A stretch of 35,574 bases of DNA from Desulfobulbaceae bacterium. Its GTDB lineage: Bacteria; Desulfobacterota; Desulfobulbia; Desulfobulbales; Desulfobulbaceae. Made by a program: the position numbers and the translations under genes. Shown piece after piece: positions 4,595 through 25,755 of the stretch; positions within the stretch are counted from its first letter, which is position 1, and every line of letters begins with the position of its first letter. The stretch lies in contig JABMJC010000008.1 in the NCBI GenBank assembly GCA_013201405.1, positions 1 through 35,574 on the forward strand, read 5' to 3'. The notes beneath the pieces were generated by a model, which did no database searches, was not told the origin of the DNA, and was given only the letters and a program-made list of their open reading frames with translations.

Positions 4595-4762
4595 GTTTCC
4601 TCCATGGCTCAGTTTGAGACAGCCCTGCAGCCGAAGAACCGCAGGGGGGCAGGAGCGCGTACCGTCTGATACTCACGGCGCTGCGCGCCCCTGCACACCC
4701 TGGCCAAGCTCTTCTCCAGGCCTGTATGTAAAGGGAATGTCCGTTTTATTTCAGAACCATCC

Positions 4763-5731
4763 CTATTTGCTTGCGTTTATCTTTTCCGTTAGAACCGGAA
4801 TAAAATCAAGAATATCTGCAACGATTCCAACGTCTGCAGCCTGGAAGATAGGGGCATTTTTATTTTTGTTTACTGCCACGATAAAAGGAGAGCCCTTTAT
4901 GCCGCCTATATGCTGAAAGGAGCCGCTGATGCCAAGGGCAAGGTAGACCTTAGGGCTGACGGTTTGTCCCGAGGTGCCCACCTGCCTTGATTTTTCCAGC
5001 CATTTGGCGTCAACAACGGGCCGGGAACAGGCCACATCAGCCCCCATGGCCGTGGCCAGTTCATGCACCAAGTCCAGATTGTCTTCTTCCTCGATACCCC
5101 GGCCAACAGCAACAAGAATCTCTGATTTGGTGATGTCAACATCACCAACTTCAGCGGCAATCACCTCGACGAATTGACGTTTGCTGGACAGATCGCCCAG
5201 ATCCGCTGACTTATCCACCACTGCGCCCTGCGCACCAGCTTCTGGCGCCTTGAAAGAACCAGCACGCACACTGATAATCGCACCATTTTCCAGACTGCAG
5301 GTAGAACGGGAAGATACCGCACCACCGTGTTCCTGGCGCGCCAACTGCAAGGTATCGTCTTGGATTCCCTCAAAGGCCACCACATCAGAGGCAAAGGCCG
5401 CATCGAGTACAATGGAAAGACCTGGGGCCAAATCCATGGAAAAGGAATCATGGTTCAAAAGGAGCAGAGCTTTGGCCGGTAGCAGGCTGGCCAGCACTTT
5501 TCGCTGCACCTCTGCATTGGGATACTGGAGCGCATCGTGGCTTGCGGTGATCACCTCAGAGTAATACGGTGCAACCTGACTGGCGACTTGCTCCACATCA
5601 GCGCTACTGCCAAGCACAATGGCGCTTGGCGCGGCAGCCGCATCAATAGCCTTTGCAGCGCTGGCCAGTTCAAAGGCAGTGTCATCAGCTTCTCCATTTT
5701 TATGGGTAATGTACACAAATATGGCAGCCAT
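4763..5731 (-). CDS. etfA: Electron transfer flavoprotein alpha subunit
   Basis: C-terminal FAD domain VGTSGQTVSPKVYLALGISGSFQHIGGIKGSPFIVAVNKNKNAPIFQAADVGIVADI; adjacent to etfB. Confidence 0.95.
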   Translation of the reverse strand: MAAIFVYITHKNGEADDTAFELASAAKAIDAAAAPSAIVLGSSADVEQVASQVAPYYSEVITASHDALQYPNAEVQRKVLASLLPAKALLLLNHDSFSMDLAPGLSIVLDAAFASDVVAFEGIQDDTLQLARQEHGGAVSSRSTCSLENGAIISVRAGSFKAPEAGAQGAVVDKSADLGDLSSKRQFVEVIAAEVGDVDITKSEILVAVGRGIEEEDNLDLVHELATAMGADVACSRPVVDAKWLEKSRQVGTSGQTVSPKVYLALGISGSFQHIGGIKGSPFIVAVNKNKNAPIFQAADVGIVADILDFIPVLTEKINASK

Positions 5732-6507
5732 TATTTTATACCTCCCTTTGCCTGCAACAATTCAACCAATTTATCTGCCAGCTCTTCCTCGCTCCCTTCA
5801 AGCATTTCCGCACCTTCTCCCAACTCGGGCTGAAAGTATTCCAGCTTGTTCAAACGCAGAGGCACATCGGTAAAGCCGATGTCTGCCGCGCCAAGGGTGG
5901 GAATTTCCACCGAGGCCACCTTGCGGATTCCCCGAATGCTGACATAACGGGGCTCGTTGATGCCGGTTTGGATGGAGAGTACGCAGGGCAACTCGATTTC
6001 ACTGATTTCCTGGCTCCCTCCTTCAATCTCCCGGCCGATTTTCAACTTGTTGTCGTCCAACACCTCGATCATGTTGACCAAAGCGGCGTAGGGCTTGTCC
6101 TGCATGGCAGCGAGCATGCCGCCCACCTGGGCTCCGCCCTCGTCTGCCTGGGCTCCACACAGAACAAGATCAAAGTTGTTCTTGCTGATATACGCGCTGA
6201 GGATGGCTGCCAGCTTGCGGCCGTCGGCCTCCTCAAAAAGCGGGTCGCTCAGCAGTACGCCTGTTTCTGCACCCATGGCCATTTCCCGACGGAGGATCTC
6301 CTCGTTCTCCTCTGTACCAATGCTCACCACCGTGACCGAGCCGCCGACCTTGTCAACCAGTTGGATAGCCTCTTCAACCGCGTAGTTGTCCCATTCATTG
6401 ACCGCGTAGACCAAGTCATCCGTGTCAATGTCGTTTCCCTCCCGATTCAGCCGGATTTCATTTTCAGAAGAATCGGGAACCCGTTTGACGCAAACAAGAA
6501 TATTCAT
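5731..6507 (-). CDS. etfB: Electron transfer flavoprotein beta subunit
   Basis: MNILVCVKRVPDSSENEIRLNREG...YAVNEWDNYAVEEAIQL...DLVLCGAQADEGGAQVGGMLA; 1-nt overlap with etfA. Confidence 0.95.
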   Translation of the reverse strand: MNILVCVKRVPDSSENEIRLNREGNDIDTDDLVYAVNEWDNYAVEEAIQLVDKVGGSVTVVSIGTEENEEILRREMAMGAETGVLLSDPLFEEADGRKLAAILSAYISKNNFDLVLCGAQADEGGAQVGGMLAAMQDKPYAALVNMIEVLDDNKLKIGREIEGGSQEISEIELPCVLSIQTGINEPRYVSIRGIRKVASVEIPTLGAADIGFTDVPLRLNKLEYFQPELGEGAEMLEGSEEELADKLVELLQAKGGIK

Positions 6508-6605
6508 CCAGTTTTTCCTCCTTTACTCTCCATAGACAGGGTACGCTGCTTTTTCCGCAGCAAAAATTTTGCCATCCAGCCACGCACAGGCAAGAAAAGC
6601 GTCCC

Positions 6606-8687
6606 TTATACCGCTGCAGCTACAGTCGGAACAAACTCCACCTGCTCTGCAAAAAGCTCGGTCAAATCAATAACTTTTAACTCGTTTTCCAGGCCAGCAA
6701 TCTTGACCGCATCCTCCATGTTGATCAAACAGAAGGGACAGGCTGTCACCAATACATCGGCACCTGCCTCCCGGGCCATTTGGACCCGAACAACCCCCAT
6801 GCGGGTTTCCTCTTCGGGTTCGTAGAAAAGGGCCAATCCACCGCCGCTACAGCAGAAGGAACGGTCTCTGTGCTTTTCCATTTCCACCCGTTTCATACCT
6901 GGCAAGGCATCCAAAAGCTGCCTTGGCTCATCGTAGAGTAGGTTGTGGCGGCCCAGATAGCAGGGATCGTGGTAGGTGTACACCAAATCTTTTTCCTCCA
7001 ACGGACGGAGGCTGAATTTCCCCTGTGCCAGCCCTTCCACCAATACCTGGCTGATATGGCGGACAGGCGGCAAGCCTTCATAATCCCTGCACAGGGTATT
7101 GAAAGTATGCGGATCAGTAGTGACAATTTCCTGGGGAGCCACTTCCAGAATCGCTTCGGTGTTGTGCTCCTTTATTTCCTGAAAAAGCATCTCCTCGCCA
7201 AAACGTCGTATCTCGTTGCCAGCGTCCTTTTCCTGTTCGCCAAGGATACCGAAATCCTTGTCCATGTGGTGGAGAAGCTGCGCGGCTTTCCGGTTGATTT
7301 CTATGATCCGGTCATCGTAGGAGCCAACACTGTCGACAAAAAAGAGAGTATCCGCAGTTTCACCGCCTTGCAGCAGTTTCACGGGCACAGCCTGGGCAAA
7401 CTCTTCCTCCTCGATCCATTTACCACGCTGTTTTGCCGTCTTGCCATAGGGGTTGCCCCGTCTTTCCAAGGCATTGAGCGGCTTTTGCAGGGATTGAGGT
7501 ACCATACCCTCATCAATCAAACCCCGGCGCAGATCAACTATTTTGTCAATGTACTCAATCGCCAGGGGGCATTCCTCTTCACAGGCACCACAGGTCGTGC
7601 ACGACCAAATTTCGTCTTCCGTATAGATACCGCCGATCAAAGCCGGGGCCTCTTGGGGTTGCCCCCAAACAGGAAAGGTCTTGAACAGCAGATCCCTTGC
7701 CTTGATCGTGATGAAGCGTGGCGACAGAGGACGCTTGACAGCATTGGCAGGGCACTGGTCAGAACAGCGGCCGCAATCGGCACAGCTGTAAAAATCCAGC
7801 ATGTGTTTCCAGGTGAAATCTTCAAGCTTCTTGACCCCAAAAGACTCCAGCTCATCCAGTTCTTCCTTCGCCAATCCGTAGCGCACAGGCTTGACCTTCC
7901 CCCGGTCGAGCCGCATAAACAGCACGTTGAAAAAAGAAGTCAGCACATGGAAGTGTTTGCCAAAGGGCAGAAAGCAGAGGAAATAAAAGAAGGTCAGGTC
8001 ATGCACATAGTACGAAACAATGTGGATGCCCTGCAACAGCTCCGTAGAACTTCCCCTGAGCATGCCCGTAAAAAACCACGCCAAGCTCAAAGGCGCGGCA
8101 AAATGCCCGGCCTCTCCGCCTGTAGCCAGTTTGCTGGCATCAAACAGGCTTTCAGAAATCATCAAGAGAGAGATAAGCGCCAGCACGAAAACAGCTTCGC
8201 CGGTATGGTCCTTACCATACTGTTCAGGAACAGCATAGCGGGGAGGCTTGACGACACCCCGGCGGATACCGGCGATCACACAGGCAACAAGCACCACGGT
8301 CGCCGCATAATCCTTGGCGATCGTATAGCCAACCCCTAGGGAACCACCAAGAAAGGGCCACTGGAAGTCGTCCTGAAAGCCGATGAAAACCAAGGCAATG
8401 GAGCGGAGCATGAGCACTAAAAAGCCAAAGAAAATGGCCATGTGCAGCACGCCAGCCAGCATATAGCGGGGTTGCTTGACCTGCAGGAGCCAAAGCGACC
8501 ATATCTGGGCCAGCCGCTCACCGAACCTGTTGAACCGTTCATCCTGGGCTGCCCTGCGCAGGGGGATCAATCGTTTGCTGATGATATAGGCAAACAGAAC
8601 AAGGGCAACAACAGGAATGAGTATGGAAAAAATTTGCGTTTTAATGCCCAGAACAACGAATTGCGCGGGCCCAACAATATCCATCAT
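6606..8687 (-). CDS. Membrane-bound FeS oxidoreductase (NarI-like helices + [4Fe-4S] + CCG domains), likely ETF:(mena)quinone oxidoreductase (EMO type)
   Basis: N-terminal transmembrane region; CADCGRCSDQCP and CTTCGACEEECP clusters; C-terminal CCG domain (YHDPCYLGRHN...CCSGGG...TACPFCLINMED); sits between etfB and acyl-CoA dehydrogenase. Confidence 0.88.
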   Translation of the reverse strand: MMDIVGPAQFVVLGIKTQIFSILIPVVALVLFAYIISKRLIPLRRAAQDERFNRFGERLAQIWSLWLLQVKQPRYMLAGVLHMAIFFGFLVLMLRSIALVFIGFQDDFQWPFLGGSLGVGYTIAKDYAATVVLVACVIAGIRRGVVKPPRYAVPEQYGKDHTGEAVFVLALISLLMISESLFDASKLATGGEAGHFAAPLSLAWFFTGMLRGSSTELLQGIHIVSYYVHDLTFFYFLCFLPFGKHFHVLTSFFNVLFMRLDRGKVKPVRYGLAKEELDELESFGVKKLEDFTWKHMLDFYSCADCGRCSDQCPANAVKRPLSPRFITIKARDLLFKTFPVWGQPQEAPALIGGIYTEDEIWSCTTCGACEEECPLAIEYIDKIVDLRRGLIDEGMVPQSLQKPLNALERRGNPYGKTAKQRGKWIEEEEFAQAVPVKLLQGGETADTLFFVDSVGSYDDRIIEINRKAAQLLHHMDKDFGILGEQEKDAGNEIRRFGEEMLFQEIKEHNTEAILEVAPQEIVTTDPHTFNTLCRDYEGLPPVRHISQVLVEGLAQGKFSLRPLEEKDLVYTYHDPCYLGRHNLLYDEPRQLLDALPGMKRVEMEKHRDRSFCCSGGGLALFYEPEEETRMGVVRVQMAREAGADVLVTACPFCLINMEDAVKIAGLENELKVIDLTELFAEQVEFVPTVAAAV

Positions 8688-8813
8688 GTTCTCCTTTGCA
8701 ACAAATGCGGTTTCTACGGTATGCCCACCTGTCCTCCACCAGGATGGTTACAAACAGGCAGGCAACCGACTGGCATGGCCATCCGCTTTTTTGCGGTTTT
8801 CAGGCTGACAGAT

Positions 8814-9959
8814 TTATCTGCCCTTTTTCAACAGCTCCCGGGCTATAACATGCCGCTGTATCTGGTTGGTGCCTTCGTAGATGGTGAGGATGCGGGCATC
8901 TCGATAAAAGCGCTCCACCGGATACTCTTTAATGTACCCGTAGCCGCCGTGAATTTGTACGGCATGGGCGGTTACCCTGTTGGCCATTTCCGAGGCAAAG
9001 CACTTAGCCATGGATGCTGCCATGGTGCAATTTTCACCCCGATCTTTCATGGCCGCGGCATTCAAAACCAACAGGCGGGCAGCTTCGATATCCATGGCCA
9101 TGTCGGCAAGCATCCACTGCAGACCCTGAAACCTGGCTATTTCCTGCCCAAACTGCTTGCGCTGTTTAGCATACTTCAGGGCCTCATCCATGGCCGCCTG
9201 GGCAACACCCAAAGACAGGGAGGCAATGCCGATCCGTCCTGCATCAAGACCAGACATGGCCACGGTAAAGCCTTTGCCCTCTTCGCCAAGAACCCGTGAA
9301 ACCGGAACCTTGCAATCGGTGAAAACCAGATCCACGGTGTCTGAAGCGCACTGGCCCATCTTGTCTTCCACCTTGTCCACCTTGAAACCAGGCATATCAG
9401 GGGTGACGAGAAAGGCAGTAATGGCATCAGATCCCGTTTCCTTGGTACGGGCCAAAAGGATAGTAACCCCGCCATTTTTGCCCGAGGTGATAAAGCGTTT
9501 GGTGCCATTGATCAGGTAGTGATCTCCTTCCTTGACAGCGCTGCATTCGATGGCCTGGGCATCAGAACCAGCCTCTGGTTCTGTCAGGGCAAAGGCCCCG
9601 ATGATTTTGCCTTCGGTCATGGGCACAAGAAATTCCTGCTTCTGCTCTTCTGTACCAAAACGCTCGATGCTGCCGCAGCAGATGGAGTTGTGAACCGACA
9701 TGATAACAGCGGTTGAAGCACAGGCTGCCGCAATCTCGCTGAGTGCCAGGGCATAAGACACTGTGCCCATGTCTTCCCCGCCGTACTTTTCGGAAACCAG
9801 CATACCCAACAGGCCGAGCTCTCCCATTTTTTTCAGGCTATCCGCCGGATAGAGATGCTTTTCATCCCTTTCAGCAGCAAGTGGAGCCAACTCTTTCCGG
9901 GCAAAATCCCGAGCCATTTTCTGGATCATCAACTGTTCTTTACTCAGTTCGAAGCTCAT
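8814..9959 (-). CDS. Short-chain acyl-CoA dehydrogenase (butyryl-CoA dehydrogenase-like)
   Basis: FALTEPEAGSDAQAIEC, AVQIHGGYGYIKEYPVERFYRDARILTIYEGTNQIQR with the catalytic-Glu context of short-chain acyl-CoA dehydrogenases. Confidence 0.95.
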   Translation of the reverse strand: MSFELSKEQLMIQKMARDFARKELAPLAAERDEKHLYPADSLKKMGELGLLGMLVSEKYGGEDMGTVSYALALSEIAAACASTAVIMSVHNSICCGSIERFGTEEQKQEFLVPMTEGKIIGAFALTEPEAGSDAQAIECSAVKEGDHYLINGTKRFITSGKNGGVTILLARTKETGSDAITAFLVTPDMPGFKVDKVEDKMGQCASDTVDLVFTDCKVPVSRVLGEEGKGFTVAMSGLDAGRIGIASLSLGVAQAAMDEALKYAKQRKQFGQEIARFQGLQWMLADMAMDIEAARLLVLNAAAMKDRGENCTMAASMAKCFASEMANRVTAHAVQIHGGYGYIKEYPVERFYRDARILTIYEGTNQIQRHVIARELLKKGR

Positions 9960-10291
9960 ACCTCATCCTCACTCTGCATAGTTATCAATTGGCGTTGCCG
10001 CCTCCAACTTCCAGAATATCAATCACTTGGCAGCCATACTTACAGCGTTGCCCCTAGACTGATGACAGTGCTCTTTGAATATGGGGGCATTTACTATGAT
10101 GCAGGAGAAGCTACACACCTCTTGCGACCAGACAAAAAGCCAGCCACAATGCTCAATAACCAGCCTCCCTACACTGTTTGCCTGCACGCCCCCTTTAATG
10201 CTCCTATTGTATGCTTGTGTATTCAGGATTCACGATGGCAGCAGGCTGCCTCCATGTTTATACATGAAGGCAGCACCGTGATCCCATGATA

Positions 10292-11074
10292 TTATTTGTT
10301 TTGAAACACAGGTTTTCGTTTTTCCAGAAAGGCGCTCATCCCCTCTGCCCGGTCAAGGGTTGCAAAGGCAATGGCAAAGAGTTCCGCCTCATAGGCGCAG
10401 CCCCTGTCCATATCCATTTCCAGCCCCCTGTTTACCGCCTCCTTGCAGAAACGAACTGCAAGCGGGCCCTTACCAGCAATTTTTTCCGCCATCTCCATAG
10501 CGCTTTCCAAGTGTTTCCCGGGTTCCACCACCTTGTTCACCAGGCCAATAGCATGCGCCCTCTGGGCGTCAATGATATCACCGGTAAACAGTAGTTCTTT
10601 GGCAATCCCCTTACCAACCAGCCGCGGCAGCCGCTGCGTTCCGGCAAAGCCCGGCAAAACCCCGAGGTTGACCTCTGGCTGACCGAATTTGGCGTTTTCA
10701 CTGGCAATGCGGATGTCGCAGGCCATGGCCAACTCACAACCTCCTCCCAAGGCAAAACCGCCGATTGCGGCAATAACCGGCTTGGCTACCGCCTCAATGG
10801 TGGCAAGCATCTGCTGTCCCTTGTAGGCAAAGGCCCGCGCAGCAAGGGGATCCAAATCCCGCATGGCCGCAATATCGGCTCCAGCAACAAAGGCCTTTTC
10901 CCCTGCACCAGTCAGAATGAGCACCTTGAGTGCCTCGTCAGCTCCCATGGCGGTAAAGGCGCGCTGAAGTTCTTCAATAGTCTCAGCATTAAGCGCATTT
11001 AAAGCCTTGGGCCGGTTAACTGTAATAATACCAACAGCCCCCCTGACCTCAACCATCACGTTTGTATATTCCAT
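10292..11074 (-). CDS. Enoyl-CoA hydratase (crotonase)
   Basis: VGIITVNRPKALNALN, AGADIAAM, IGGFALGGGCELAMACDIRIAS, LPGFAGTQRLPRLVG crotonase signatures. Confidence 0.95.
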   Translation of the reverse strand: MEYTNVMVEVRGAVGIITVNRPKALNALNAETIEELQRAFTAMGADEALKVLILTGAGEKAFVAGADIAAMRDLDPLAARAFAYKGQQMLATIEAVAKPVIAAIGGFALGGGCELAMACDIRIASENAKFGQPEVNLGVLPGFAGTQRLPRLVGKGIAKELLFTGDIIDAQRAHAIGLVNKVVEPGKHLESAMEMAEKIAGKGPLAVRFCKEAVNRGLEMDMDRGCAYEAELFAIAFATLDRAEGMSAFLEKRKPVFQNK

Positions 11075-11140
11075 ACGATCCTCTTTGTGAATGTCACAAG
11101 CCTAGTTACACACGAACATGCTGATATGCTGCCACAGCAC

Positions 11141-11962
11141 TCAAGACGTGGGCTTGTTCTTGGGGATAAAAATCTCATCCGGATCAAGCACCTCATGGAT
11201 GATGTGTAGCTCCTCGCGGGTAGGAGGAAGGGTTTCTCCCTGCACCCGGGACACATCAAGGTCGAACTGGCACAGTGCTTTGACCTCTTCCACGGTCTTA
11301 CCCGGATGGTAGGTATCAAGATACATGTACCCCTCTTCCTCATCGAAGCGGAAGACTCCAGCGGTACTGATCACTGCCGAAGGACCACCCTGGTAGGCTG
11401 CTCCGTACAGTTCGCGCCTGTGCACCCATTCACCGCCAGGCCATTTTTTTACCCGCCAGCCCGGGCTGGTAATATAGCTGACCTGTTCGACAAAGCGTCT
11501 TTTTTCATGGACCATGATAAAAACGGTTCGCTTGGACCAGGAATTGATGTCCGGATTGCCGCCACTGCCGGTCAGCCGCAATTCCGGCTCAAGATAGTTG
11601 CCAATGCAGGTGGTGTTGACATTGCCGTACAGGTCGATCTCCGCTCCGCCGAGATATCCCAAGTCAACCAGGCCCCGCTGGGCAATGGAGAAGGCGTCGT
11701 TAAGACCAGATGATCTGGATGCCCCGGTTTCACAGCGGGCATCGCCAACCGAGGTGGGCAATTCCGGTGGTCGACCGTCCAAAGTGCCTGCCTCGAAAAT
11801 AAGCTTGAGGTTCGGTGCATGGGTTTTCTGGCCCAACATGATGGCCACCATAGGAAGCCCAGTACCTGCAAAAACGATTTCATTGTCCCTTACTTCGCGG
11901 GACGCAGCGCAACAGAGCAGATCCGCCAAGTTATATTCTTCAGGAGTAGCATACTTACTCAT
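11141..11962 (-). CDS. CoA-transferase beta subunit (glutaconate CoA-transferase B-like)
   Basis: MSKYATPEEYNLADLLCCAASREVRDNEIVFAGTGLPMVAIMLGQK; start at 11962 preferred because of an upstream GGGAGGT ribosome-binding site, instead of the ORF-track start at 12079. Confidence 0.9.
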   Translation of the reverse strand: MSKYATPEEYNLADLLCCAASREVRDNEIVFAGTGLPMVAIMLGQKTHAPNLKLIFEAGTLDGRPPELPTSVGDARCETGASRSSGLNDAFSIAQRGLVDLGYLGGAEIDLYGNVNTTCIGNYLEPELRLTGSGGNPDINSWSKRTVFIMVHEKRRFVEQVSYITSPGWRVKKWPGGEWVHRRELYGAAYQGGPSAVISTAGVFRFDEEEGYMYLDTYHPGKTVEEVKALCQFDLDVSRVQGETLPPTREELHIIHEVLDPDEIFIPKNKPTS

Positions 11963-11973
11963 ATCGACCTCCC

Positions 11974-12927
11974 TTACCGTCGAGGACTGTAGTTGAGTGC
12001 AGTGTTCGCCCGCAGTTTCAACATCCTGGACCAGCCCAACTTTTCCAGATAGCTGATGTGGTCCTGTCCAAAAATCCATTCCTTGGCAAAGGCATCAAAA
12101 CCTTCCTGGGTACGGGTTTTGGAATAAAAATCCTTAAGAAAGGCACCGTCCACGTCGTACCTGCCAAACATGCCGGTGGGATGCGCACCATAGGGGCATT
12201 CGACAATATAATCGACCTCAAAACTGGGGATGGTATTTTGGTCGGCGTGCCGGCGCAAATACGACTCGGGCACAATCTCCTCAGCAACCACGATCGTGAT
12301 ATCCGCGGCCCGGCAGGCCTCGGGATCCGAGTAGTACTGGCCAGCAATACGCACTGTGCCCTCTTCGCCTACCTGCTGCACACACAACACTGCCACATCG
12401 ACTTTTACCGCAGGAACAAGGACGATTTGCCCTGCATCGTAGAAGGGGTCTTCGGTAAAGATGTATTTGTGCTTGGCAATACGTTTGCCGTCGCGCTTGC
12501 CCGCCCGACCCAGCATGTCATATTCAGGATTGTGGATATCTGTGCCCAATGCTGCCTGGGTGGCAGCATAGGGAGCGCCTGATGCAGCAGCGCTGAAACG
12601 AAACATCATCTCAGCATGGCTGTAGTCTTCCACAACAATTTCTTTGGCCCCCACCTTGCGGGAAAGGTTGGCACCGTATTTGCCGTAGAGTTCATGACCA
12701 ACCCAGCAGGATTCCCATACATCCACACAGCCCGCGCCCACCAGCAATTCGGTGTGCGAGCCACCATTGACCTCAATGAGATGGAGTCCGGACTTTTTCT
12801 GCCGGATCAATTCAAAGACAAAAGCAATGGGCCTACGCCAGATGGTAAACCCGGAAAAAGTGATACTGGAGCCATTTTTGACGAGTTCAACAGCCTCTTG
12901 CATAGTAATTTTCTTGCCGTTGCCCAT
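11974..12927 (-). CDS. CoA-transferase alpha subunit (glutaconate CoA-transferase A-like)
   Basis: MGNGKKITMQEAVELVKNGSSITFSGFTIWRRPIAFVFELIRQKKSGLHLIEVNGG; 11 bp upstream of the beta subunit. Confidence 0.9.
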   Translation of the reverse strand: MGNGKKITMQEAVELVKNGSSITFSGFTIWRRPIAFVFELIRQKKSGLHLIEVNGGSHTELLVGAGCVDVWESCWVGHELYGKYGANLSRKVGAKEIVVEDYSHAEMMFRFSAAASGAPYAATQAALGTDIHNPEYDMLGRAGKRDGKRIAKHKYIFTEDPFYDAGQIVLVPAVKVDVAVLCVQQVGEEGTVRIAGQYYSDPEACRAADITIVVAEEIVPESYLRRHADQNTIPSFEVDYIVECPYGAHPTGMFGRYDVDGAFLKDFYSKTRTQEGFDAFAKEWIFGQDHISYLEKLGWSRMLKLRANTALNYSPRR

Positions 12928-13051
12928 AAATATTCCCCCTGTCTATTATGGCTTACCCCAGGTATTCAGCCTCTCGGCTAAATAACACAGGCCTGGGAAA
13001 AAAGGAGAAGAGCTTGGAGCGAAATCCCCTTCAAGCATCTCCTCCGGCGTC

Positions 13052-14227
13052 TTAACGTTTGACGATCATTGCCACGGCTTCTCCACCCCCCAGACACAGG
13101 GAGACAAGTCCCTTTTTCTTGTCTTGGCGGACCATCTCATGCAAAAGGGTCACCAGCAGGCGACAGCCGCTTGCCCCAATCGGATGCCCCAAGGCGACAC
13201 TGCCACCGTTGACATTGACCTTGGCTGGATCCAACTCAAGGGTTCTCAGGGCAGCCACAGTCGAGCCGCTAAAGGCCTCGTTGATCTCGTAAAGATCAAT
13301 GTCGTCTTTGCTGATGCCCTCTTTTTTCAGGCATTTGGGTACCGCCCAAATGGGGGCGACCAGAACATATTTCATATCAATGCCGTAGGAAGCCTGGGCA
13401 CCGATGGTCGCCATGATGGTACAACCAAGTTCTTCGGCCTTTTTCCTGCTCATGACCACCACAGCGGCAGCACCGTCACTGATAATCGACGCATTGCCAG
13501 CAGTGGTAATGCCGTCTTTCTTGAAGGCCGGCCGCATTTTAGCAAGCTGCTCATAGGTGGTTTCCTGCGGACACTCGTCTTTAGCAAACTGCAACGGATC
13601 CTTTCTGCGCTGGGGCACCATAACAGGCATAATTTCCTGGTCAAACTTGCCAGCAGCCTGTGCGGCTAAGGTGCGGCGGTAGGATTCGGCGGCATAGCGA
13701 TCCTGGTCTTCCCGGCTCACCTGGTAGCGTTCGGAGCACAGCTCGTTGGATATCCCCATATGAAAATCATTAACCTGATCCCAGAGCCCGTCATGTACCA
13801 TATGATCATGGATCTTTTCTTCCCCCATGCGGTAGCCAAAGCGGGCTTTCTTCAAGAAATAAGGCGCCATGCTCATGTTCTCCATGCCACCGGCAACAAC
13901 TACCTCGGCATCGCCGCACTGAATCGCCTGGGCAGCGAGCATCACCGACTTAAGCCCGGAGCCGCACACCTTGTTCACCGTCAGGGCCTCCACTTCTTCG
14001 GGCATGTCGGCCAAGACTGCAGCCTGTTTGGCAGGGTTCTGCCCATACCCGCAGGGCAGCACCATGCCCATGATCACCTCATCGACCAGTTCCTTCTTAA
14101 TTCCGGCCCGCTGCACAGCTTCTTCAATCACAAGCGCCCCGAGTTTGGTAGCTCCGATACTTCCCAACGAACCGTTAAAACCGCCCAGAGGTGTCCTGAC
14201 CGCACTGACAATGACAGCTTCCTGCAT
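13052..14227 (-). CDS. Acetyl-CoA C-acetyltransferase (thiolase)
   Basis: TVNKVCGSGLKSVMLAAQAI, NVNGGSVALGHPIGASGCRLLVTLLHEM, SLCLGGGEAVAMIVKR thiolase motifs; GGGGG ribosome-binding site upstream. Confidence 0.96.
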   Translation of the reverse strand: MQEAVIVSAVRTPLGGFNGSLGSIGATKLGALVIEEAVQRAGIKKELVDEVIMGMVLPCGYGQNPAKQAAVLADMPEEVEALTVNKVCGSGLKSVMLAAQAIQCGDAEVVVAGGMENMSMAPYFLKKARFGYRMGEEKIHDHMVHDGLWDQVNDFHMGISNELCSERYQVSREDQDRYAAESYRRTLAAQAAGKFDQEIMPVMVPQRRKDPLQFAKDECPQETTYEQLAKMRPAFKKDGITTAGNASIISDGAAAVVVMSRKKAEELGCTIMATIGAQASYGIDMKYVLVAPIWAVPKCLKKEGISKDDIDLYEINEAFSGSTVAALRTLELDPAKVNVNGGSVALGHPIGASGCRLLVTLLHEMVRQDKKKGLVSLCLGGGEAVAMIVKR

Positions 14228-14806: not shown

Positions 14807-15721
14807 CTATACAGGAGAAGATGCCGGTCCTGGAGAAAAAAGAGGGTTCGTGCCGCTTCTTAAGTAACCATCCTCGGCCATGCGCAGATCAAGGGCCAGG
14901 GTGGCCAAATCATCGGCCAACGGTTCCAATTCCGGCTCCTGTTCCTGATACATAACTTTGATATAACTGCGACAAGTCAAACAGAGCTCGGCGCGCACAT
15001 GCTCCAGCAGGCCCTGCACAGTGCAATAGCTGAGCCCCTGGCTGCCACCGCAGTGGCTGCACTTGGAACGCACCACGTGCCAGCCTGAACCGCACAAACC
15101 GCAATGGAGATAACGCAAACCCTTGCTGGGTCCAGCTGCCACAATCACCCCGGCCACGGGCTGGCCACCGCAGAGGGGACAGACTGCACTTTCCTCGTGC
15201 CTGGGTGGTAGGGTTTGCGCACATAAACGCACTTGCCTGGTCCAGGCCACTTGTAACGCGGCCGCAGTCAGCGGAGCAGTTGCCACGACCACCCCAGCCG
15301 CCGCAGGCAAATGGCCTGCGAGCAGCGCGTCGACCTGTTCTGTGAACCATGGTTCTGCTCTTTCAGGCAAAGCGCCAAAGAGATGGCGCTGCGCAGACGG
15401 CAAGGTATCCGCCAATGTCGTCCCCAAACGGCGTACCAGGGTCCAGAGCTGGGGAAGCACCGGAGAAGCGACAAAGGACCGTTGCCCGGTTGCCTCATCA
15501 CAGCGTGCAACTGCAATGGAATCCTGCAACTCCTCGTGTTGCAGCGCACACAGCCGTGCTACAAAGTGCAGATATGCCGCCAGCATATTGCCTTGCCGGG
15601 CAAGCTGACGGCACCGTTTTTCGCGGCGGAGAAACAGGTCGACCGCAGGCACGTGCCACTCGGCAATGGCTCCCCGCGCCTCTTCCAGCTCACCTGGTTG
15701 CAGGATGTTTGAGCGGCTCAT
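14807..15721 (-). CDS. fdhE: Formate dehydrogenase accessory protein FdhE
   Basis: Cys-rich motifs CPLCGGQPVAGVI, LRYLHCGLCGSGWHVVRSKCSHCGGSQGLSY; last gene of the formate dehydrogenase operon. Confidence 0.92.
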   Translation of the reverse strand: MSRSNILQPGELEEARGAIAEWHVPAVDLFLRREKRCRQLARQGNMLAAYLHFVARLCALQHEELQDSIAVARCDEATGQRSFVASPVLPQLWTLVRRLGTTLADTLPSAQRHLFGALPERAEPWFTEQVDALLAGHLPAAAGVVVATAPLTAAALQVAWTRQVRLCAQTLPPRHEESAVCPLCGGQPVAGVIVAAGPSKGLRYLHCGLCGSGWHVVRSKCSHCGGSQGLSYCTVQGLLEHVRAELCLTCRSYIKVMYQEQEPELEPLADDLATLALDLRMAEDGYLRSGTNPLFSPGPASSPV

Positions 15722-16392
15722 CAGCCTGCCGCTTTTTCGCCGAAAGCAGAAGATGCCTGCGCATCATGTGCAACCTGCATTTTCTCCTCATACCACAAGC
15801 GGTTGTGGTACCGTGCCCAGGCAGTGGACACCCGCCCCAGCACCATGCCAGACACTGCACCCTTTGTCCAGATGGCAGCATAGACATGGACAATCAGACT
15901 GAGCACTGCAACAAAGGCGGCAATGCTGTGGGTCAACACTGCTATCCGCCGCGAGAAAACACTAAATGCATCGGCAAACAGTGGCTGCCAAATCACCACC
16001 CCGGTGAGCAAGAGCAGGAGGATGAGCACCAGTTGAGTACGGGCTAGCATTTTTTGGCCAAAATTGTACTTGCCACTGGGGGGCACCTTGTCCATGCGGT
16101 TGCGCAACATATCCGGAATATGTACCGCCCACTTGCGGTCTGCGGTAGTAAAACGCAGATACTTCCAGATACGGATCATCCACACAAGAAAGACTACTAC
16201 CATCACCACGGCAAAGTAGGGATGGAGAATGCGCGCCCAAGTACCACCGCCAAAAAGATTGGTCAGCCAGCACAAACCCGGATGGAAAAACCCCAAACCT
16301 GAAAGGGCGGTAAGAATGAAGCTGAGGGCAAGGAGCCAGTGATTGCAACGCTCACTGCCTGTGTATCGGCGAATAACCTGTTCCCTGTTCAT
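15721..16392 (-). CDS. fdnI: Formate dehydrogenase cytochrome b (gamma) subunit
   Basis: [38 protein letters not shown]...[23 protein letters not shown]; start trimmed from 16509 to 16392 because it overlaps the upstream beta-subunit stop. Confidence 0.92.
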
Positions 16393-17258
16393 GCGACCTC
16401 CTCCTCTTCGTGCTCCTTGTTGGGGCCTTGGCTCACATAGTGGAAAAAAGCGGCCAGCACCGCCGCTGCCAAACCGGCGTTCATGACCGTCTTGGCAAAT
16501 CCCTTCCACAAACCCACCAGGGGGCTCAGCATTGGCTCCCTGGGCAAGCCGCTGTACAATTCCGGCTTGTCGGCGTGGTGGAGCACATACATGACATGGG
16601 TACCCTCCACACCAGGTGGGTCATAAAGACCGGCCTGGGCAAAACCGCGCTCCTTCAAATCAAGAATACGCTCTGCAGCATGCTGGTGCATATCCTTTTT
16701 ACTGCCAAAGACAATGGCCCCGGTCGGGCAAACCTTGGCGCAGGCAGGCTCTGTACCGACCGCAACCCGGTCCGAGCAGAGCGTACACTTGTAGGCCTTG
16801 CCGTCTTCTGCCGAAATTCTGGGGATATTGAAGGGACAGCCGATGATGCAGTAACCGCAGCCCGTGCAGTTTTCCTGGTGGAAATCAACAATGCCATTGC
16901 TGTATTTAACAATAGCTCCAGGTGCCGGGCAGGAGGCAAGACAGCCAGGGTCGCTGCAGTGCATGCAGCCATCCTTGCGGATGAGCCACTGCAGCTTGCC
17001 CGGTGCAGGCTCCACCTCGGCATAACGCATTATGGTCCAGGATTGGGCGGTCAGGTCAGCTGGGTTGTCGTATACACCCACATTGCGGCCCACAGTATCG
17101 CGCAGGTCGTTCCACTCCTGGCAAGCCACCTGGCAGGCCTTGCAGCCAATGCATTTGGAAATATCGATGAGTTTGGCCAGCTCAACGGTCTTGCGCGCCT
17201 GGGGCGCAGGCGTAGTCGTGGCGGAGCGGGCGCTGATATCAAGTGATTGCAGTGCCAT
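16389..17258 (-). CDS. fdnH: Formate dehydrogenase iron-sulfur (beta) subunit
   Basis: Multiple 4Fe-4S motifs ([73 protein letters not shown]) and a C-terminal hydrophobic helix; start trimmed to MALQSLD. Confidence 0.95.
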
Positions 17259-17271
17259 GGCATTACCCTCC

Positions 17272-20200
17272 TTACACCTTCTCAACTTGAACGAGAAAGG
17301 CCTTAAATTCCGGGGTGTTGGTGTTGGCGTCGCCCACAAATGGAGTGAGGGTGTTGGCCAGGTAACCATTTTTAGCCACTCCGAGAAAACCCCAGTGCAG
17401 CGGCACCCCCACCGTGTGCACCTTCTTGCCCGCTATGTCCAGTTGCCGGATGCGCTTGGTCACCACCGCCATGGCCACGATAAAGCCGCGCTTGGAAGTA
17501 ACGCGCACCGTGTCGCCAGCCTTGATGCCCTTTTCCATGGCCAGTTCCTCGCCGAGTTCAACAAACTGTTCTGGCTGGATAATGGCATTGAGGCGGGCAT
17601 GCTTGGTCCAAAAATGAAAATGCTCGGTCAGGCGGTAGGTGGTGCACACATAGGGAAACTCCTCGGCACGACCAAAGCTGTCACTGTCGCTGGCAAAAAT
17701 ACGCGCAGCCGGATTGAAGCGCGCAGCCTCGTTACCATTACTCAACGGGTTGAACGCCAGTGGTGATTCCACCGGTTCATAGTGCTCCGGGAAGGGGCCT
17801 TCTGCCATCTTGTCCACGGCAAAGAGTCGACCCACACCCTCGGGATTCATGATAAAAGGCCCCATACCATCTGCAGGGGATGAGGTGGCGTTGAAATCCG
17901 GCACATCTGAGCCGACCCAGCGTGCCCTGGTCGCATCCCAGTAAATGAGACGACGACTGGCATCAAAGGGTTTGCCCTCCACGTCGCAGGAGGCCCGGTT
18001 GTAGAGTATGCGCCGATTGGCAGGCCAGGAGAAGGCCCAATTCAGGGTTTGGCCAATGCCGTAGGGATCACTGTTGTCACGCCGGGCCATGAGGTTGCCC
18101 TGTTCCGACCAGCAGCCGGCAAAAATCCAGCAACCACAGGAGGTGGAACCATCATCGCGCAGTTCGCCAAAACCGTTCAACTGCTGTCCGGCCCTGACCA
18201 GCACCCTGTCCGGGTCAGCCGGGTCAGTGACATCGCGCAAAGCCTTGCCCGAAAACTCGCGCGCCAGTTCTTCCGGGCTTGGTGCATGCGGCCTGAGATA
18301 TGGCCAGTGCAGGTTCAAGATCGGGTCTGGAAAGGCGCCGCCATCCTTGGCGTACATCTCGCGCAACTTTAAAAAGATGCCCGCCATGATTGCCTGGTCG
18401 CCTTTGGCCTCGCCCGGTGGATCCGCAGCCTGCCAATGCCACTGCAGCCAGCGAGACGAGTTGACCAAAGAGCCATCCTCTTCGGCAAAGCAGGTGGAGG
18501 GCAGACGAAACACCTCGGTTTGAATGCTAGCGGGATCCACATCGTTGTACTCGCCATGATCCTGCCAGAATTCAGAGGTCTCGGTGGCCAGCGGATCGAT
18601 CACCACCAGGTATTTCAGCTTGGCAAGCGCACTCGACACCTTGATCTTACAGGGTGCCGAGGCCAGCGGATTGAAGCCCTGGCAGAAATAGCCATTCATC
18701 TCGCCATTGTTCATATTTTCGAACACTTGCAAGATGTCGTACTGTTTGTCCAACTTGGGCAACCATTCAAAGCACCAACCATTTTCTTCAGTGGCGGCAT
18801 CTCCATACCAGGCCTTCATGGTGCTGACGAAAAAACGGCCAAAATGCTGCCAGTAGCTCATCTGGTTGGGCCTGAGCGGCTTGAGAGAGGAGCGGGCAAT
18901 GTAGGCGGCAACACTCTCACGGGCATCCACCGGCAGGCTGGACTGCATGGGCTGCTCAGGCGAATCAGTACCCGCCTGGGGCTGCACCGGTTTGCTTTCG
19001 CCCGGCAGGTTCAGGTAACCAGGTAAAAGGTTGCTTAGCAGGCCCAAATCGGTCAACCCCTGGATATTGGAATGGCCGCGCAGGGCATTGACACCGCCAC
19101 CCGCCATACCAACGTTACCTAAAAGCAGCTGGATCATGCAGATGGTGCGGATATTCTGCGAACCTTTGGAATGCTGTGTCCAGCCCAGGGCATAGAGTGC
19201 GCTCAAGGTTTTGTCTGGTGCTGCGGTCTCGGCGATCAGTTTGCAGATGGCCAGAAAGTCCTCCTTAGGCGTACCGCAAAGGGTGGCGACCATCTCGGGT
19301 GTGTAACGGGCATAGTGTTTTTTCAGAAGCTGGTACACACAGTATGGATGCTGCAGGGTCGGATCGGTCAGCACATAGCCATCCGGTCCAAGCTGGTAGT
19401 TCCAGGTTTTCTTGTCATAGCTCCGTGTTGCCGGATCATAGCCGCTGAACAGACCGTCTTGGAAAGAAAAACCTTCATCCACCAAAAAGGTAAAATCAGT
19501 ATAGGCCCTGACATAGGCGCGATTGATTGCATCCGTACTGAGCAGGTAATTGAGTACACCGCCAAGAAAAACGATGTCACTGCCAGGGCGGATTGGGGCG
19601 TACATATCCGCCACCGCAGCCGAACGCGTAAAGCGTGGATCCACCACAATCAGCTTGGCGCCGTTGTGGGCCTTGGCTTCAGTCACCCACTTGAAACCGC
19701 AGGGATGGGCTTCGGCGGCATTACCGCCCATGATGAGGATGAGATTTGCATTCTTGATATCGACCCAATGATTGGTCATTGCGCCGCGGCCAAACGTGGG
19801 GGCAAGACTTGCCACCGTGGGGCCGTGTCAGACCCGGGCCTGATTGTCAAAGGCAAGCATGCCCAAACTGCGGGCAATCTTGTGGGTGAGGTAACCGGTT
19901 TCGTTACTGGAGGCCGATGCCGCGAGAAAGCCGGTCGATACCCAGCGATTGACCGTTTCTCCATGCTGGTTTTTGCTGATGAAATTGGCATCCCTGTCTT
20001 CTTTCATCAGGGTGGCGATGCGGGTGAAGGCCTCGTCCCAGGAAATGCGCTGCCACTTTGTGGAGCCGGGTTGCCGGTATTCTGGATATTGCAGACGGCT
20101 TTCACTGTGAATGAAATCGAGCAGACCGGCTCCCTTGGGACAGAGCGTGCCCCGGTTCACCGGATGGTCCGGATCGCCTTCAATGTGGATGATCCTGGCC

Positions 20201-20418
20201 TTGGTGTTGAGCGAACCGTCTCCCTGGCTGTAGATGAGCAAACCACAGCCCACCGAACAGTAGGGACAGGTATTACGCACCTCGCTTGCCCGCAGCAACT
20301 TGTACTGACGAACCTCGGCCAAAGCCTCCCTGGTGGGCCCCAAGCCAAGCGCAGCCACGCTGGAGCCGGCAAGCCCCGCTGCACTGATCTTCATAAACTG
20401 ACGTCGCGTGTAGTGCAT
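17272..20418 (-). CDS. fdnG: Selenocysteine-containing formate dehydrogenase major subunit (TAT-exported, molybdopterin family); ORF track splits it at the Sec codon
   Basis: N-terminus [27 protein letters not shown] (TAT motif), [13 protein letters not shown] FeS motif, and continuous frame AFDNQARV-[TGA][28 protein letters not shown] across the two ORFs (19828..20439 and 17272..19815), matching the Sec context of FdnG/FdoG. Confidence 0.96.
19798..19827 (-). promoter_or_regulatory. Candidate bacterial SECIS element
   Basis: mRNA immediately 3' of UGA: CACGGCCCCACGGUGGCAAGUCUUGCCCCC; apical stem GGCAA-GUC-UUGCC at 19813..19801, loop about 19 nt after the UGA. Confidence 0.8.
19828..19830 (-). 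other. UGA codon recoded as selenocysteine
   Basis: In-frame TGA (plus-strand tca) between DNQARV and [21 protein letters not shown], the known Sec position in formate dehydrogenase N/O. Confidence 0.95.
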
Positions 20419-20576
20419 AGCATTCCCCCTTGGGCACATTGTCGGTCAAAGACCGGGTACAACAACAGCACAAAAAGTACCACATTGTATCCGGCACCCA
20501 CTTGCACCATACCAACCATTTCCTGGAAAACCCAGGGGAAAAACATAACCTCCAAAACCCTTGACTAATGACGAAA

Positions 20577-21482: not shown

Positions 21483-22282
21483 CAATGCACCAGCCACTCA
21501 AGCCAGCCCAGCCCCCAAAGACCTGCTCCGGTAAGGGCCACCAGGTGCAAAGCGATCAGGGGCCAACGGTAGCGATGGTACCACAGGTCAAATTGCTGTA
21601 AGGTGATCAGGCCGCCGCAGAGCCGCCGCATCCGATCCAGCGGCAAATACACATCATTGTCAGAAGGAGAATCACCTTGAAAGGCCATGGCCGGATAGGC
21701 GAGGTACATGCGGTCGCTGCGCAAATCGCGCAAAAAATCATCATAGGCGACCCCATGCCAGGGATGCTGCTGGCTGATGGTTGCGGCAAATTCATGGGTA
21801 ATGGCATAGGCATGGGCCAGGCTGCGATAGTGGATACGCGCCACAGGAATGTCCGGCAGTTTGTGGCAGGCCCGCACCATGCAACCTAAAAACAGCATAT
21901 CCCAAGAGCAATGCGTGCGCAGAAAATACACCAACTGCGCCAGACGCTGGGGTGAAAAATGTAAAAAAACCACATCGTCTTCAAAAATCAGCATCCGCCG
22001 CGCACCGCTGGCCAGCCCCTTATCCATACAGAGCAGGTGCGAAGTGTAAATTCCCTGTTCCGGGTTATCCTCCTGTTTTTCCACCAACACAAACTCAACC
22101 CGTTCCCCCAAACCCACCCGGGCGAATTGTGCCCGGGCTTCCCGCCGGCGGTCTTTCCGATTCACCAGGGAAATGCAGTAAATCCGGTCGAAAAAAGACC
22201 AATCTGCCACCTTGTCGTTGCAAGAAGCAGCTATGTTCTTCTTGATGCTTGCGCAGACAAAACCGTTTTTGCTAGGATGCAT
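21482..22282 (-). CDS. Glycosyltransferase family 25 (LPS biosynthesis-type) protein
   Basis: FDRIYCISLVNRKDRRREARAQFARVGL..., ARRMLIFEDDVVFLHFSPQRLAQL (EDD motif); start at MHPSKNG (22282) preferred over 22474, which overlaps the divergent gene. Confidence 0.85.
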   Translation of the reverse strand: MHPSKNGFVCASIKKNIAASCNDKVADWSFFDRIYCISLVNRKDRRREARAQFARVGLGERVEFVLVEKQEDNPEQGIYTSHLLCMDKGLASGARRMLIFEDDVVFLHFSPQRLAQLVYFLRTHCSWDMLFLGCMVRACHKLPDIPVARIHYRSLAHAYAITHEFAATISQQHPWHGVAYDDFLRDLRSDRMYLAYPAMAFQGDSPSDNDVYLPLDRMRRLCGGLITLQQFDLWYHRYRWPLIALHLVALTGAGLWGLGWLEWLVH

Positions 22283-22370
22283 AACCGACTTGAGGGTGTT
22301 CAAAAAAGAGTGTTCAAAAAATATTGCCCGAACAACGCATATCCAACCCCTTGCCTTTCTCCAGAAACCT

Positions 22371-23804
22371 GTGAACATTACCCTTGTCCACCCGGCTGGC
22401 TCCAACTGGATGCCCGGCAAAAAAGACATCAGCCCCATCGCCAACCGCATGGCCCCCATCGGCCTGCTCTCCATGGCCGCCTATCTCGAGCAGAGGGGAC
22501 ACAGGGTTCAAGTGCTCGACTGCCTGGGCCCGCATCCTGTCAAAAACGCGGCAGAGGCTGCCCAGCGCATCTGCGCCGGCCGGCCGGATCTGATTGGCTT
22601 TACCGCCACCACCTCTAGCTTTCTCGATGGTTACGAGATTGCGGCCCTGCTCAAGACCATGGAGCCGCACCGCCGCATTGTTTTTGGCGGTGTGCACGCC
22701 TCTGCCCTGGGCGGTACGCTGCTTGCGCAGTATCCCTGTATTGATTTTCTCTGCCTGGGCGAGGGGGAGCAAACCCTGAGTGAACTGGCCGAAGGAAAGG
22801 ATCCAGCCACCATCTGCGGGCTGGTCTGGCGGGATGGTGACACGGTGTGCACCAATCCACCACGTCAGCACCTGGCCGAGCTCGATGCCCTCCCCTTCCC
22901 TGCATACGAAAAACTCGCTGGTTTCCCCCGCCAGTACCACCTGCCCCTGTTCAGTTATGTGCGCACACCCGGCGCCACCATGATCACCAGCCGCGGTTGC
23001 CCCTACCAGTGCTCCTACTGCGACCGCTCTGTGTTCCAACGGGGATACCGCGCCAACTCGCCAGAATACATCTACGAACACCTCAAGTACCTGCGCCAGC
23101 GCTTTGCAGTGCGCCATATCAATATCTACGACGACCTTTTTACCTTAAACCGTCCACGCATCGAAGCGCTCTCTGCCATGCTCGTCGCAAAACCTTTGGG
23201 CATACAGTTCAACTGCGCTGTCCGAGTAGGCCATACCGATGACGAGTTGCTGGGGCTGCTGCGGGCAGCAGGCTGCCTGATGGTTTCTCTGGGTATTGAA
23301 AGCGGTGAGCCTGCCCTTCTGGATGTACATAAACCCGGAGTATACTTAAACGAGGTGCGGGATACAGTGGCCCGCATTCAGCAGGCCGGCTTGCGGGTCA
23401 AAGGGCTTTTCATGATGGGCCTGCCCGGGGAAACTGTGGCTTCGGTACAAAAAACAAGTGATTTGGCACTTTCGCTTGGCCTGGATGACATGAACATGAC
23501 CAAATTCACCCCATTCCACGGAGCACCCATTTGGCGCGAGATTCCAACACTGGGCGAGTTCAAGGAAGACTGGCGGTTGATGAATTGCCTGAACTTTGTT
23601 TTTCTGCCCAAGGACATTGATTCGTGGCACACCCTGGAGTTGCTCTACAACACCCATGTCCAACGCTTTTACTCCGACCCGGGCTGGCGCAAACGTTTGC
23701 GCTCCCGCCTCTGGCAGCATCGCCACAGCCTCTATCGCCTCGTGCGGCATCTACCGGCTTTCTTCCTGGCCATGCGCGCCTTTGCGCCTAAAAAACCAAG
23801 CTGA
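22371..23804 (+). CDS. B12-binding domain radical SAM protein
   Basis: GTG start: VNITLVHPAGSNWMPGKKDISPIANRMAPIGLLSMAAYLEQRGH; GGVHASALGGTLL cobalamin-binding-like domain; SRGCPYQCSYCDRSVFQRGYRANSPE CxxxCxxC radical SAM motif. Confidence 0.92.
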   Translation: MNITLVHPAGSNWMPGKKDISPIANRMAPIGLLSMAAYLEQRGHRVQVLDCLGPHPVKNAAEAAQRICAGRPDLIGFTATTSSFLDGYEIAALLKTMEPHRRIVFGGVHASALGGTLLAQYPCIDFLCLGEGEQTLSELAEGKDPATICGLVWRDGDTVCTNPPRQHLAELDALPFPAYEKLAGFPRQYHLPLFSYVRTPGATMITSRGCPYQCSYCDRSVFQRGYRANSPEYIYEHLKYLRQRFAVRHINIYDDLFTLNRPRIEALSAMLVAKPLGIQFNCAVRVGHTDDELLGLLRAAGCLMVSLGIESGEPALLDVHKPGVYLNEVRDTVARIQQAGLRVKGLFMMGLPGETVASVQKTSDLALSLGLDDMNMTKFTPFHGAPIWREIPTLGEFKEDWRLMNCLNFVFLPKDIDSWHTLELLYNTHVQRFYSDPGWRKRLRSRLWQHRHSLYRLVRHLPAFFLAMRAFAPKKPS

Positions 23805-23834: not shown

Positions 23835-24305
23835 TTACCGCTTTTCCCAGCTGCAATACGGATAACGGCTGAGCATGGCGTTCGTGTACCGCGGATCATG
23901 GCTCACCTCTTCCCCCACCCAATCGGGTTTAACCACTTCCTGCGTCGCACAGGCGAGCTCCACCTCAATCACCACCAAACCGGCATTGTCACCGTAAAAC
24001 TCATCCACCTCCCAGATAAACCCATTATAGGCAATGCGGTGGCGTTTTTTTTCAATAAGCGGCCCAGAACACAAAGCAAACAAGGCCGTAGCATCTGCTA
24101 AAGGAATAACGTATTCAAATTCTGCCCGGCTGATGCCCTGGGTCTGCCCCTTGATGGTGAGAAAAGCCTGGTCACCGGCAAGACGCACCCGCACTGTGCG
24201 TTCAGGACTGGCACAGAGATAGCCCTGCCGATACATGATGCCTGGCGCTAAGCCCCGCCAGCCATCATGGGCGGGCAGATATTTACGCTCGATTTCCTGC
24301 GCCAC
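23835..24305 (-). CDS. CYTH domain protein (triphosphate tunnel metalloenzyme family)
   Basis: GTG start gives (V/M)AQEIERKYLPAHDGW with the ExExK motif; RVRLAGDQAFLTIKG, EKKRHRIAYNGFIWEVDEFYGDNAGLVVIEVEL. Confidence 0.88.
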   Translation of the reverse strand: MAQEIERKYLPAHDGWRGLAPGIMYRQGYLCASPERTVRVRLAGDQAFLTIKGQTQGISRAEFEYVIPLADATALFALCSGPLIEKKRHRIAYNGFIWEVDEFYGDNAGLVVIEVELACATQEVVKPDWVGEEVSHDPRYTNAMLSRYPYCSWEKR

Positions 24306-24330
24306 AGATGCGTCCTTCTGCCATTTTCCC

Positions 24331-25755
24331 TTATTTCCCTTCTGCTTCGGTTCGACTCCTGAGCTGTTTTTCCAGCCGGTTGAGAAGCAAACTGCTGGTT
24401 TCTCCAGGTATGATCTCCTCTGGTGCATGGAAAAGAACAGTGGCACATTGCAGATGTTCCCCATTAAAGCCACAGTGCACCTTTTGCAGGGCCTCTATGC
24501 GGTCCAGCACTACCTGAAAATGTGGCTTGCCGGTTTGGGGCAAGAGCAGCCACACCATATCCTGCTGGAAACGGGAGAGTAAATCCACTTTGCGGATATG
24601 CTGGCTGACACGGTAGACAAAGGTATCCAGAAGCTCCATTCTGGCCCGGTTAGCATCGGTATTCGTCTGGGAGGTAAAATGCAGTCTGATACCGATGGCT
24701 GTGAAGGTTTCGCAGGTGTTGCGGGCGCAAAAATCCAGCAACCAATTGATCATATTGATAAAAAAATGCGGGCTCACTACGTTGTTCTCGTTGAGCCCAA
24801 GGGAGGGGTACAGCGACAGGTCAGACTTGAGGGCTGTAACGCCTGCTTCGGTCAGTGCGTAATTATAAATCTGCCGTACCAAGAGCCGCTCCACCTGTGC
24901 CTGGTTGTTGCAACGCAGACAATGGGCCTGTGCCTCGGGCTGGCCAAAGGTGTTGCCGCAACTGTGGCAGATGAAACTCCCCTGCACCCAGTCGTAATCT
25001 GTCTTAATTTGCCGCAGTACACTTTTGCATTGGCTGCACTGCAGGTTCTCACCGCTTGCAAAGCTCTCCTCTGTGCCAACATGGCCGCAGAGGAGGCAAT
25101 GCACAAAAGGAGCCTCTTCGATATCCGTTCCCTTGCACCGTGGACAATGATCCACCAAGTTGAGCTGCAGGCTGCTGCACACGGGACAGTGACTGGTGCG
25201 GTCGATCAGATCCCGCCGTTGCAAATAATTCCATTCGCAGAGGGTGGCCAGGCGAGCTGCGACCAGATGTGCCGAGCCCAGCATGGCTTCGAGCAGGGTA
25301 TAAGCATAGGCGTATTCGTCCAGCCATACCCGGTGCGGAACGAGTTGCTTGTCTGGCCGGGAATACAACAGGGCGAGGATGCGCAGATAATCGCTGGCAT
25401 CAACATGAAAAACCGAAGCACTTAACTCCGCCAGACGGTACAGTATTAGCTCAGCCTCTGATCGCACCTCTTCAAGAGAAAGTTCGACGCCATCGGTGAG
25501 CAGATCCAGCGGCTTGCCAAAGCTCTTCATACTGTACAACGGTTGCAGACCGGTACGCGGATCTTGTCGAAGAATATGCACCAGTCTGGCTGCAGCCTTG
25601 CCATTGTTGTGGGCAAGGATAAAAACACTTTCACGCTGTTCGTCAAAGGAGATGTCGTCAACACCTGTACAGAGTTGCACATTCTCTCCCGCATACTCCT
25701 CGGTATAACTTGCCAGGTCTTCCTGTGGCACAAAACAGATGAGCTTCATAGGCAC
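24331..25755 (-). CDS. Multi-zinc-ribbon signalling-type protein resembling TackOD1, with degenerate GGDEF-like C-terminus
   Basis: Three CxxC...CxxC pairs (CPVC...CPRC, CLLC...CSQC, CHSC...CLRC); C-terminal GIRLHFTSQTNTDANRARMELLDTFVYRVSQHIRKVDLLSRFQQDMVWLLLPQTGKPHFQVVLDRIEAL resembles a nucleotide-cyclase fold without the GGDEF motif. Confidence 0.7.
   Translation of the reverse strand: MPMKLICFVPQEDLASYTEEYAGENVQLCTGVDDISFDEQRESVFILAHNNGKAAARLVHILRQDPRTGLQPLYSMKSFGKPLDLLTDGVELSLEEVRSEAELILYRLAELSASVFHVDASDYLRILALLYSRPDKQLVPHRVWLDEYAYAYTLLEAMLGSAHLVAARLATLCEWNYLQRRDLIDRTSHCPVCSSLQLNLVDHCPRCKGTDIEEAPFVHCLLCGHVGTEESFASGENLQCSQCKSVLRQIKTDYDWVQGSFICHSCGNTFGQPEAQAHCLRCNNQAQVERLLVRQIYNYALTEAGVTALKSDLSLYPSLGLNENNVVSPHFFINMINWLLDFCARNTCETFTAIGIRLHFTSQTNTDANRARMELLDTFVYRVSQHIRKVDLLSRFQQDMVWLLLPQTGKPHFQVVLDRIEALQKVHCGFNGEHLQCATVLFHAPEEIIPGETSSLLLNRLEKQLRSRTEAEGK

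Follow-up and report, generated by a model that had tools for sequence, protein, structure and literature searches.

A predicted selenocysteine formate dehydrogenase-N operon in a Desulfobulbaceae bacterium from a genus in which FdhD was not found

Among solved structures, the best match to the formate dehydrogenase described here is FdnG of Escherichia coli (PDB 1kqf). In that organism active formate dehydrogenases require FdhD, which delivers IscS-derived sulfur to the cofactor (PMC10609526, PMC6239281); fdhD-less organisms have been mentioned as a caveat in a review. In vitro, sulfide plus a reductant activated a Rhodobacter formate dehydrogenase that had been produced in the absence of FdhD and of its own FdsC (PMC12140954). 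Co-transfer of fdhA with a selABC cluster has also been described (PMC1794560). Against this background, the selenocysteine (Sec) gene reported below is itself textbook; the points that go beyond it are the apparent genus-wide lack of FdhD and the separation of the operon from its usual selA-selB neighbors.

We analyzed a window of 35,574 nucleotides (positions 1 to 35,574 of the forward strand of contig JABMJC010000008.1) from Desulfobulbaceae bacterium GCA_013201405.1. The genome comprises 2.46 Mb in 185 contigs, is 99.99% complete, and has its relatives in Desulfobulbus/Desulfobulbaceae. The following features were delimited in the window:

17272..20418, minus strand: fdnG, predicted formate dehydrogenase-N-type alpha subunit, Sec-containing, with an N-terminal Tat signal; TIGR01553, 1479 bits
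19828..19830, minus strand: predicted selenocysteine codon, in-frame UGA; aligned with X of 1kqf_A, with TGA at this site in all 77 homologues where it was located
19775..19833, minus strand: SECIS element (Rfam SECIS_3), 82.7 bits against a gathering score of 63; begins just 5′ of the UGA
16389..17258, minus strand: fdnH, beta subunit carrying 4Fe-4S domains and, at its C-terminus, a membrane anchor (PF09163); TIGR01582, 441.8 bits
15721..16392, minus strand: fdnI, gamma subunit, cytochrome b; TIGR01583, 160.5 bits, cut-off 115.85
14807..15721, minus strand: fdhE, accessory protein for periplasmic formate dehydrogenases; TIGR01562, 204.7 bits, cut-off 187.65

The minus-strand open reading frames 19828..20439 and 17272..19815 share one frame, which is open from 20439 to 17272 apart from a single TGA and yields 1,055 residues when that codon is read as Sec. 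An earlier note on this DNA had described two such frames joined by one TGA, and its coordinates for the gene proved right, their end falling on the ATG at 20418. This ATG, preceded by AAGGGGG, is the likely start and gives 1,048 residues; a second in-frame ATG lies upstream at 20439. A start at the GTG at 19815 was rejected, being merely the first GTG past the TGA and an artefact of ORF calling. The joined product matched TIGR01553 over 1,044 residues (1479 bits; cut-off 814) and gave a full-length alignment with E. coli FdnG (1kqf_A; 1543 bits), and the twin-arginine motif TRRQFMK could be read at its N-terminus.

Downstream, we infer the start of fdnH near 17258 (MALQSLDIS) from relatives, within a frame open up to 17369, and also that of fdnI, whose frame is open up to 16509. 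The FdhE sequence carries four CXXC motifs, as described for its family (PMC10609526). All four genes exceed their NCBI cut-offs (TIGR01553, TIGR01582, TIGR01583, TIGR01562), including those for the membrane-anchored beta subunit (TIGR01582, PF09163) and the cytochrome b gamma subunit (TIGR01583). A promoter scan returned four sites, about what chance would give (3.6). On the combined sequence evidence, we predict with high confidence that the fdnGHI-fdhE operon is intact and encodes a membrane-bound formate dehydrogenase that faces the periplasm and depends on Sec and molybdopterin (Mo or W).

The following course of readthrough, catalysis, topology and electron transfer is what we infer for this operon. 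At the UGA, SelB carrying Sec-tRNA-Sec would bind the SECIS hairpin, and the Sec inserted would serve as the metal ligand. FdhE would be co-produced with the enzyme and help its assembly or Tat export. The mature enzyme would oxidize formate and pass electrons through the FeS beta subunit and cytochrome b to the quinone pool.

FdnG is the sole frame found in the genome that passes a formate dehydrogenase model. Four further molybdoenzyme frames were considered as additional formate dehydrogenases and rejected, all falling below every NCBIfam cut-off listed; three scored best as thiosulfate reductase PhsA, and the remaining one scored best with an Fdh-alpha model (228 bits against a cut-off of 666).

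Other genes were noticed in the window. A same-strand gene run at 3989-14227 (minus), judged mostly by eye, resembles a cluster for acyl-CoA oxidation: it includes two adjacent electron-transfer flavoprotein-like subunits, a CCG-domain FeS oxidoreductase, an acyl-CoA dehydrogenase-like protein, an enoyl-CoA-hydratase-like protein, two CoA-transferase subunits and a thiolase. At 22212-23804 (plus) lies a gene for a B12-binding radical SAM protein; its neighbors encode a polysaccharide deacetylase and a weakly family-25-like glycosyltransferase, and the relative L023 has similar genes. A TackOD1 domain (“Thaumarchaeal output domain 1”, PF18551; 160.6 bits) is encoded at 24331-25755 (minus), in a bacterium, next to a CYTH-domain protein at 23835-24473, and a similar pair is present in L023.

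The operon had previously been called complete. This description stands for the beta subunit, the gamma subunit and FdhE, all over their cut-offs, and does not extend to FdhD, which was not found in the source genome with TIGR00129 or PF02634. In the genus (24 genomes, of which four are assembled as single contigs), a profile built from ten same-family FdhDs likewise returned nothing better than E 0.26. As a control, PF02634 detected FdhD in 30 of the 59 genomes from the same family (E below 1e-25) and in 8 of 14 reference genomes. Eleven of the 24 genus genomes hold an FdnG homologue at E below 1e-100: seven, including the source genome and the single-contig G046, at 76% identity or more to the window's FdnG, three at about 45%, and one as a partial match. 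When the 20 genomes with close FdnG homologues were surveyed, FdhD was not found in 14, a count on which their unreported completeness bears. Four of these 14 (L023, L024, L025, L031) come from the genus or its closest relatives, and FdhD was not found in 10 of the 16 others. Among relatives, FdhD was seen beside the operon in L101 only.

As a separate observation, six genomes of another genus in the family, g14 (G018, G027, G034, G040, G052, G055), carry long frames (about 1,370-1,390 aa) that each contain a single TGA and are 36-39% identical to the N-terminal part of the window's FdnG; FdhD was also not found there.

Since FdhD is required in E. coli and was not found in this genome, the enzyme might be inactive, a reading that gene conservation across the genus counts against. 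Given that FdhD is missing genus-wide, the sulfido ligand is probably supplied by cytoplasmic sulfide or another sulfur carrier. We give a nearly even chance, though somewhat short of it, to the cofactor being sulfurated by an FdhD that has diverged beyond the reach of the models or by a substitute unrelated to it. The enzyme is kept in seven genus genomes at 76% identity or higher and is presumably matured somehow, and the sulfur donor for Nap is likewise unknown (PMC10609526). However, three different models find nothing, although the same search recovers FdhD in 30 of 59 family genomes, and no replacement sulfurtransferase stood out by inspection of the ORFs in five FdhD-less loci.

More tentatively, the genus and several sulfur-oxidizing lineages that hold the closest enzymes may mature a Sec formate dehydrogenase without FdhD, the sulfido ligand of the Mo/W cofactor being loaded from free sulfide in a sulfidic cytoplasm and FdhD having become dispensable; the main alternative to this proposal is the unseen substitute or a general sulfur carrier. 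The FdhD-less carriers include relatives of sulfate reducers and purple sulfur or sulfur-oxidizing bacteria, and this, together with the in vitro activation by sulfide, makes direct sulfuration in a sulfide-rich cell plausible. Counting against loading from sulfide, FdhD is kept in many same-family genomes, and Desulfotalea psychrophila is the source of an FdhD structure (PMC10609526). As a natural FdhD-less gene set, these operons offer a way to ask whether FdhD is always needed or only where sulfide is scarce, a question relevant to the heterologous production of CO2-reducing formate dehydrogenases.

The relatives of the operon also speak to its origin. In L023, FdnG is 88% identical and is flanked on both sides by similar genes in a similar order. 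The enzymes closest to FdnG from beyond the genus reach 75% identity and belong to beta- and gammaproteobacteria, many of which are sulfur oxidizers by name; for homologues from the family's other genera, identity is only about 42-50%. In the phylogenetic tree (midpoint root), the genus forms a clade of 11 rows (SH-aLRT 98) inside a 22-row group that otherwise contains Pseudomonadota only. At most beta- and gammaproteobacterial loci the operon extends into selA-selB, which tRNA-Sec follows in L026, whereas neither selA nor selB adjoins it at the Desulfobulbus loci, and the machinery of the source genome is dispersed.

These patterns suggest that the selenoprotein operon entered, by lateral transfer, a host already decoding Sec; it looks like an operon that moved without its decoding genes. 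As the tree is rooted at its midpoint, the direction of transfer is presumptive. SelA of the genome is 45-56% identical to the beta/gamma versions, compared with 62-80% between L026 SelA and the others; for SelB the ranges are 35-50% and 49-77%. Because FdnI and FdhE likewise stand further from their beta/gamma counterparts than FdnG does, this divergence is suggestive only. Vertical inheritance within the Desulfobulbaceae, with no lateral acquisition, could draw on the same divergence of FdnI and FdhE and on the midpoint root, but we consider it unlikely in view of the position of the well-supported genus clade among Pseudomonadota and the low identity of the homologues elsewhere in the family.

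The decoding genes themselves were recovered. The earlier note had predicted selA, selB, selC and selD elsewhere in the genome, and all four are there, each over its cut-off (tRNA-Sec, 71 bits; SelA, 609; SelB, 374; SelD, 362); the bacterial Sec-decoding trait (selA, selB, selC, selD) is complete. The selD gene (locus L018, G000:C19:14992-15939, minus strand) has an in-frame TGA of its own (VKAAG-U-AAKLG), at what we take to be the position of the catalytic Cys of E. coli SelD. For this TGA, no Rfam SECIS match above the gathering score was obtained in L018. Judged by its in-frame TGA, the selenium donor enzyme SelD itself appears to be a selenoprotein, and Sec-containing SelD is a known kind (PMC1794560).

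The fdnG TGA aligns with the non-standard (X) residue of 1kqf_A, and TGA occupies the site in all 77 homologues in which it could be located. The SECIS_3 match at 19833-19775 (E 2.4e-18) is the sole one found in the genome. Across 40 aligned homologues (33 distinct), 89% of the cells in its hairpin are paired, versus 30-51% when the structure is slid along the alignment. Two-sided changes occur at just two pairs, a number reached in 188 of 500 shuffles, so covariation adds little, as would be expected where the protein fixes the bases. Together, the X residue, the conserved TGA and the SECIS_3 element bear out the assignment of this codon to the known Sec position of FdnG/FdoG. Readthrough of the predicted Sec codon is very well supported, and fdnG is, judged by its sequence, an intact and ordinary Sec formate dehydrogenase gene of the kind that a plain ORF caller splits. 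The opposite reading, in which the UGA is a real stop and fdnG a pseudogene or two separate proteins, has the stop codon in the ORF track in its favor and nothing beyond, and was rejected as extremely improbable given one stop only, at the catalytic position and with a SECIS, its retention as TGA in every homologue located, and the full decoding set in the genome.

Compared with known systems, the locus resembles E. coli FdnGHI (PDB 1kqf) and FdoGHI in its subunits and their order, the Sec position, the SECIS family, the Tat signal and the presence of FdhE, and differs from them in that no FdhD was found, the selenocysteine genes are dispersed and the host is Desulfobulbus-like. The Desulfovibrio-type Sec formate dehydrogenase (PDB 6sdr) has a homologous Sec alpha subunit but scores far lower against the window's FdnG (about 873 bits versus 1543 for E. 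coli FdnG); the roughly 45% identical relatives elsewhere in the genus and family may belong to this type. The fdnGHI-fdhE-selA-selB operons of beta- and gammaproteobacteria (L026 Hydrogenophilaceae, L037 Thiobacillus, L048 Collimonas and others) share the same fdnG-H-I-fdhE order; they mostly run on into selA-selB, whereas in the source genome selA and selB lie elsewhere.
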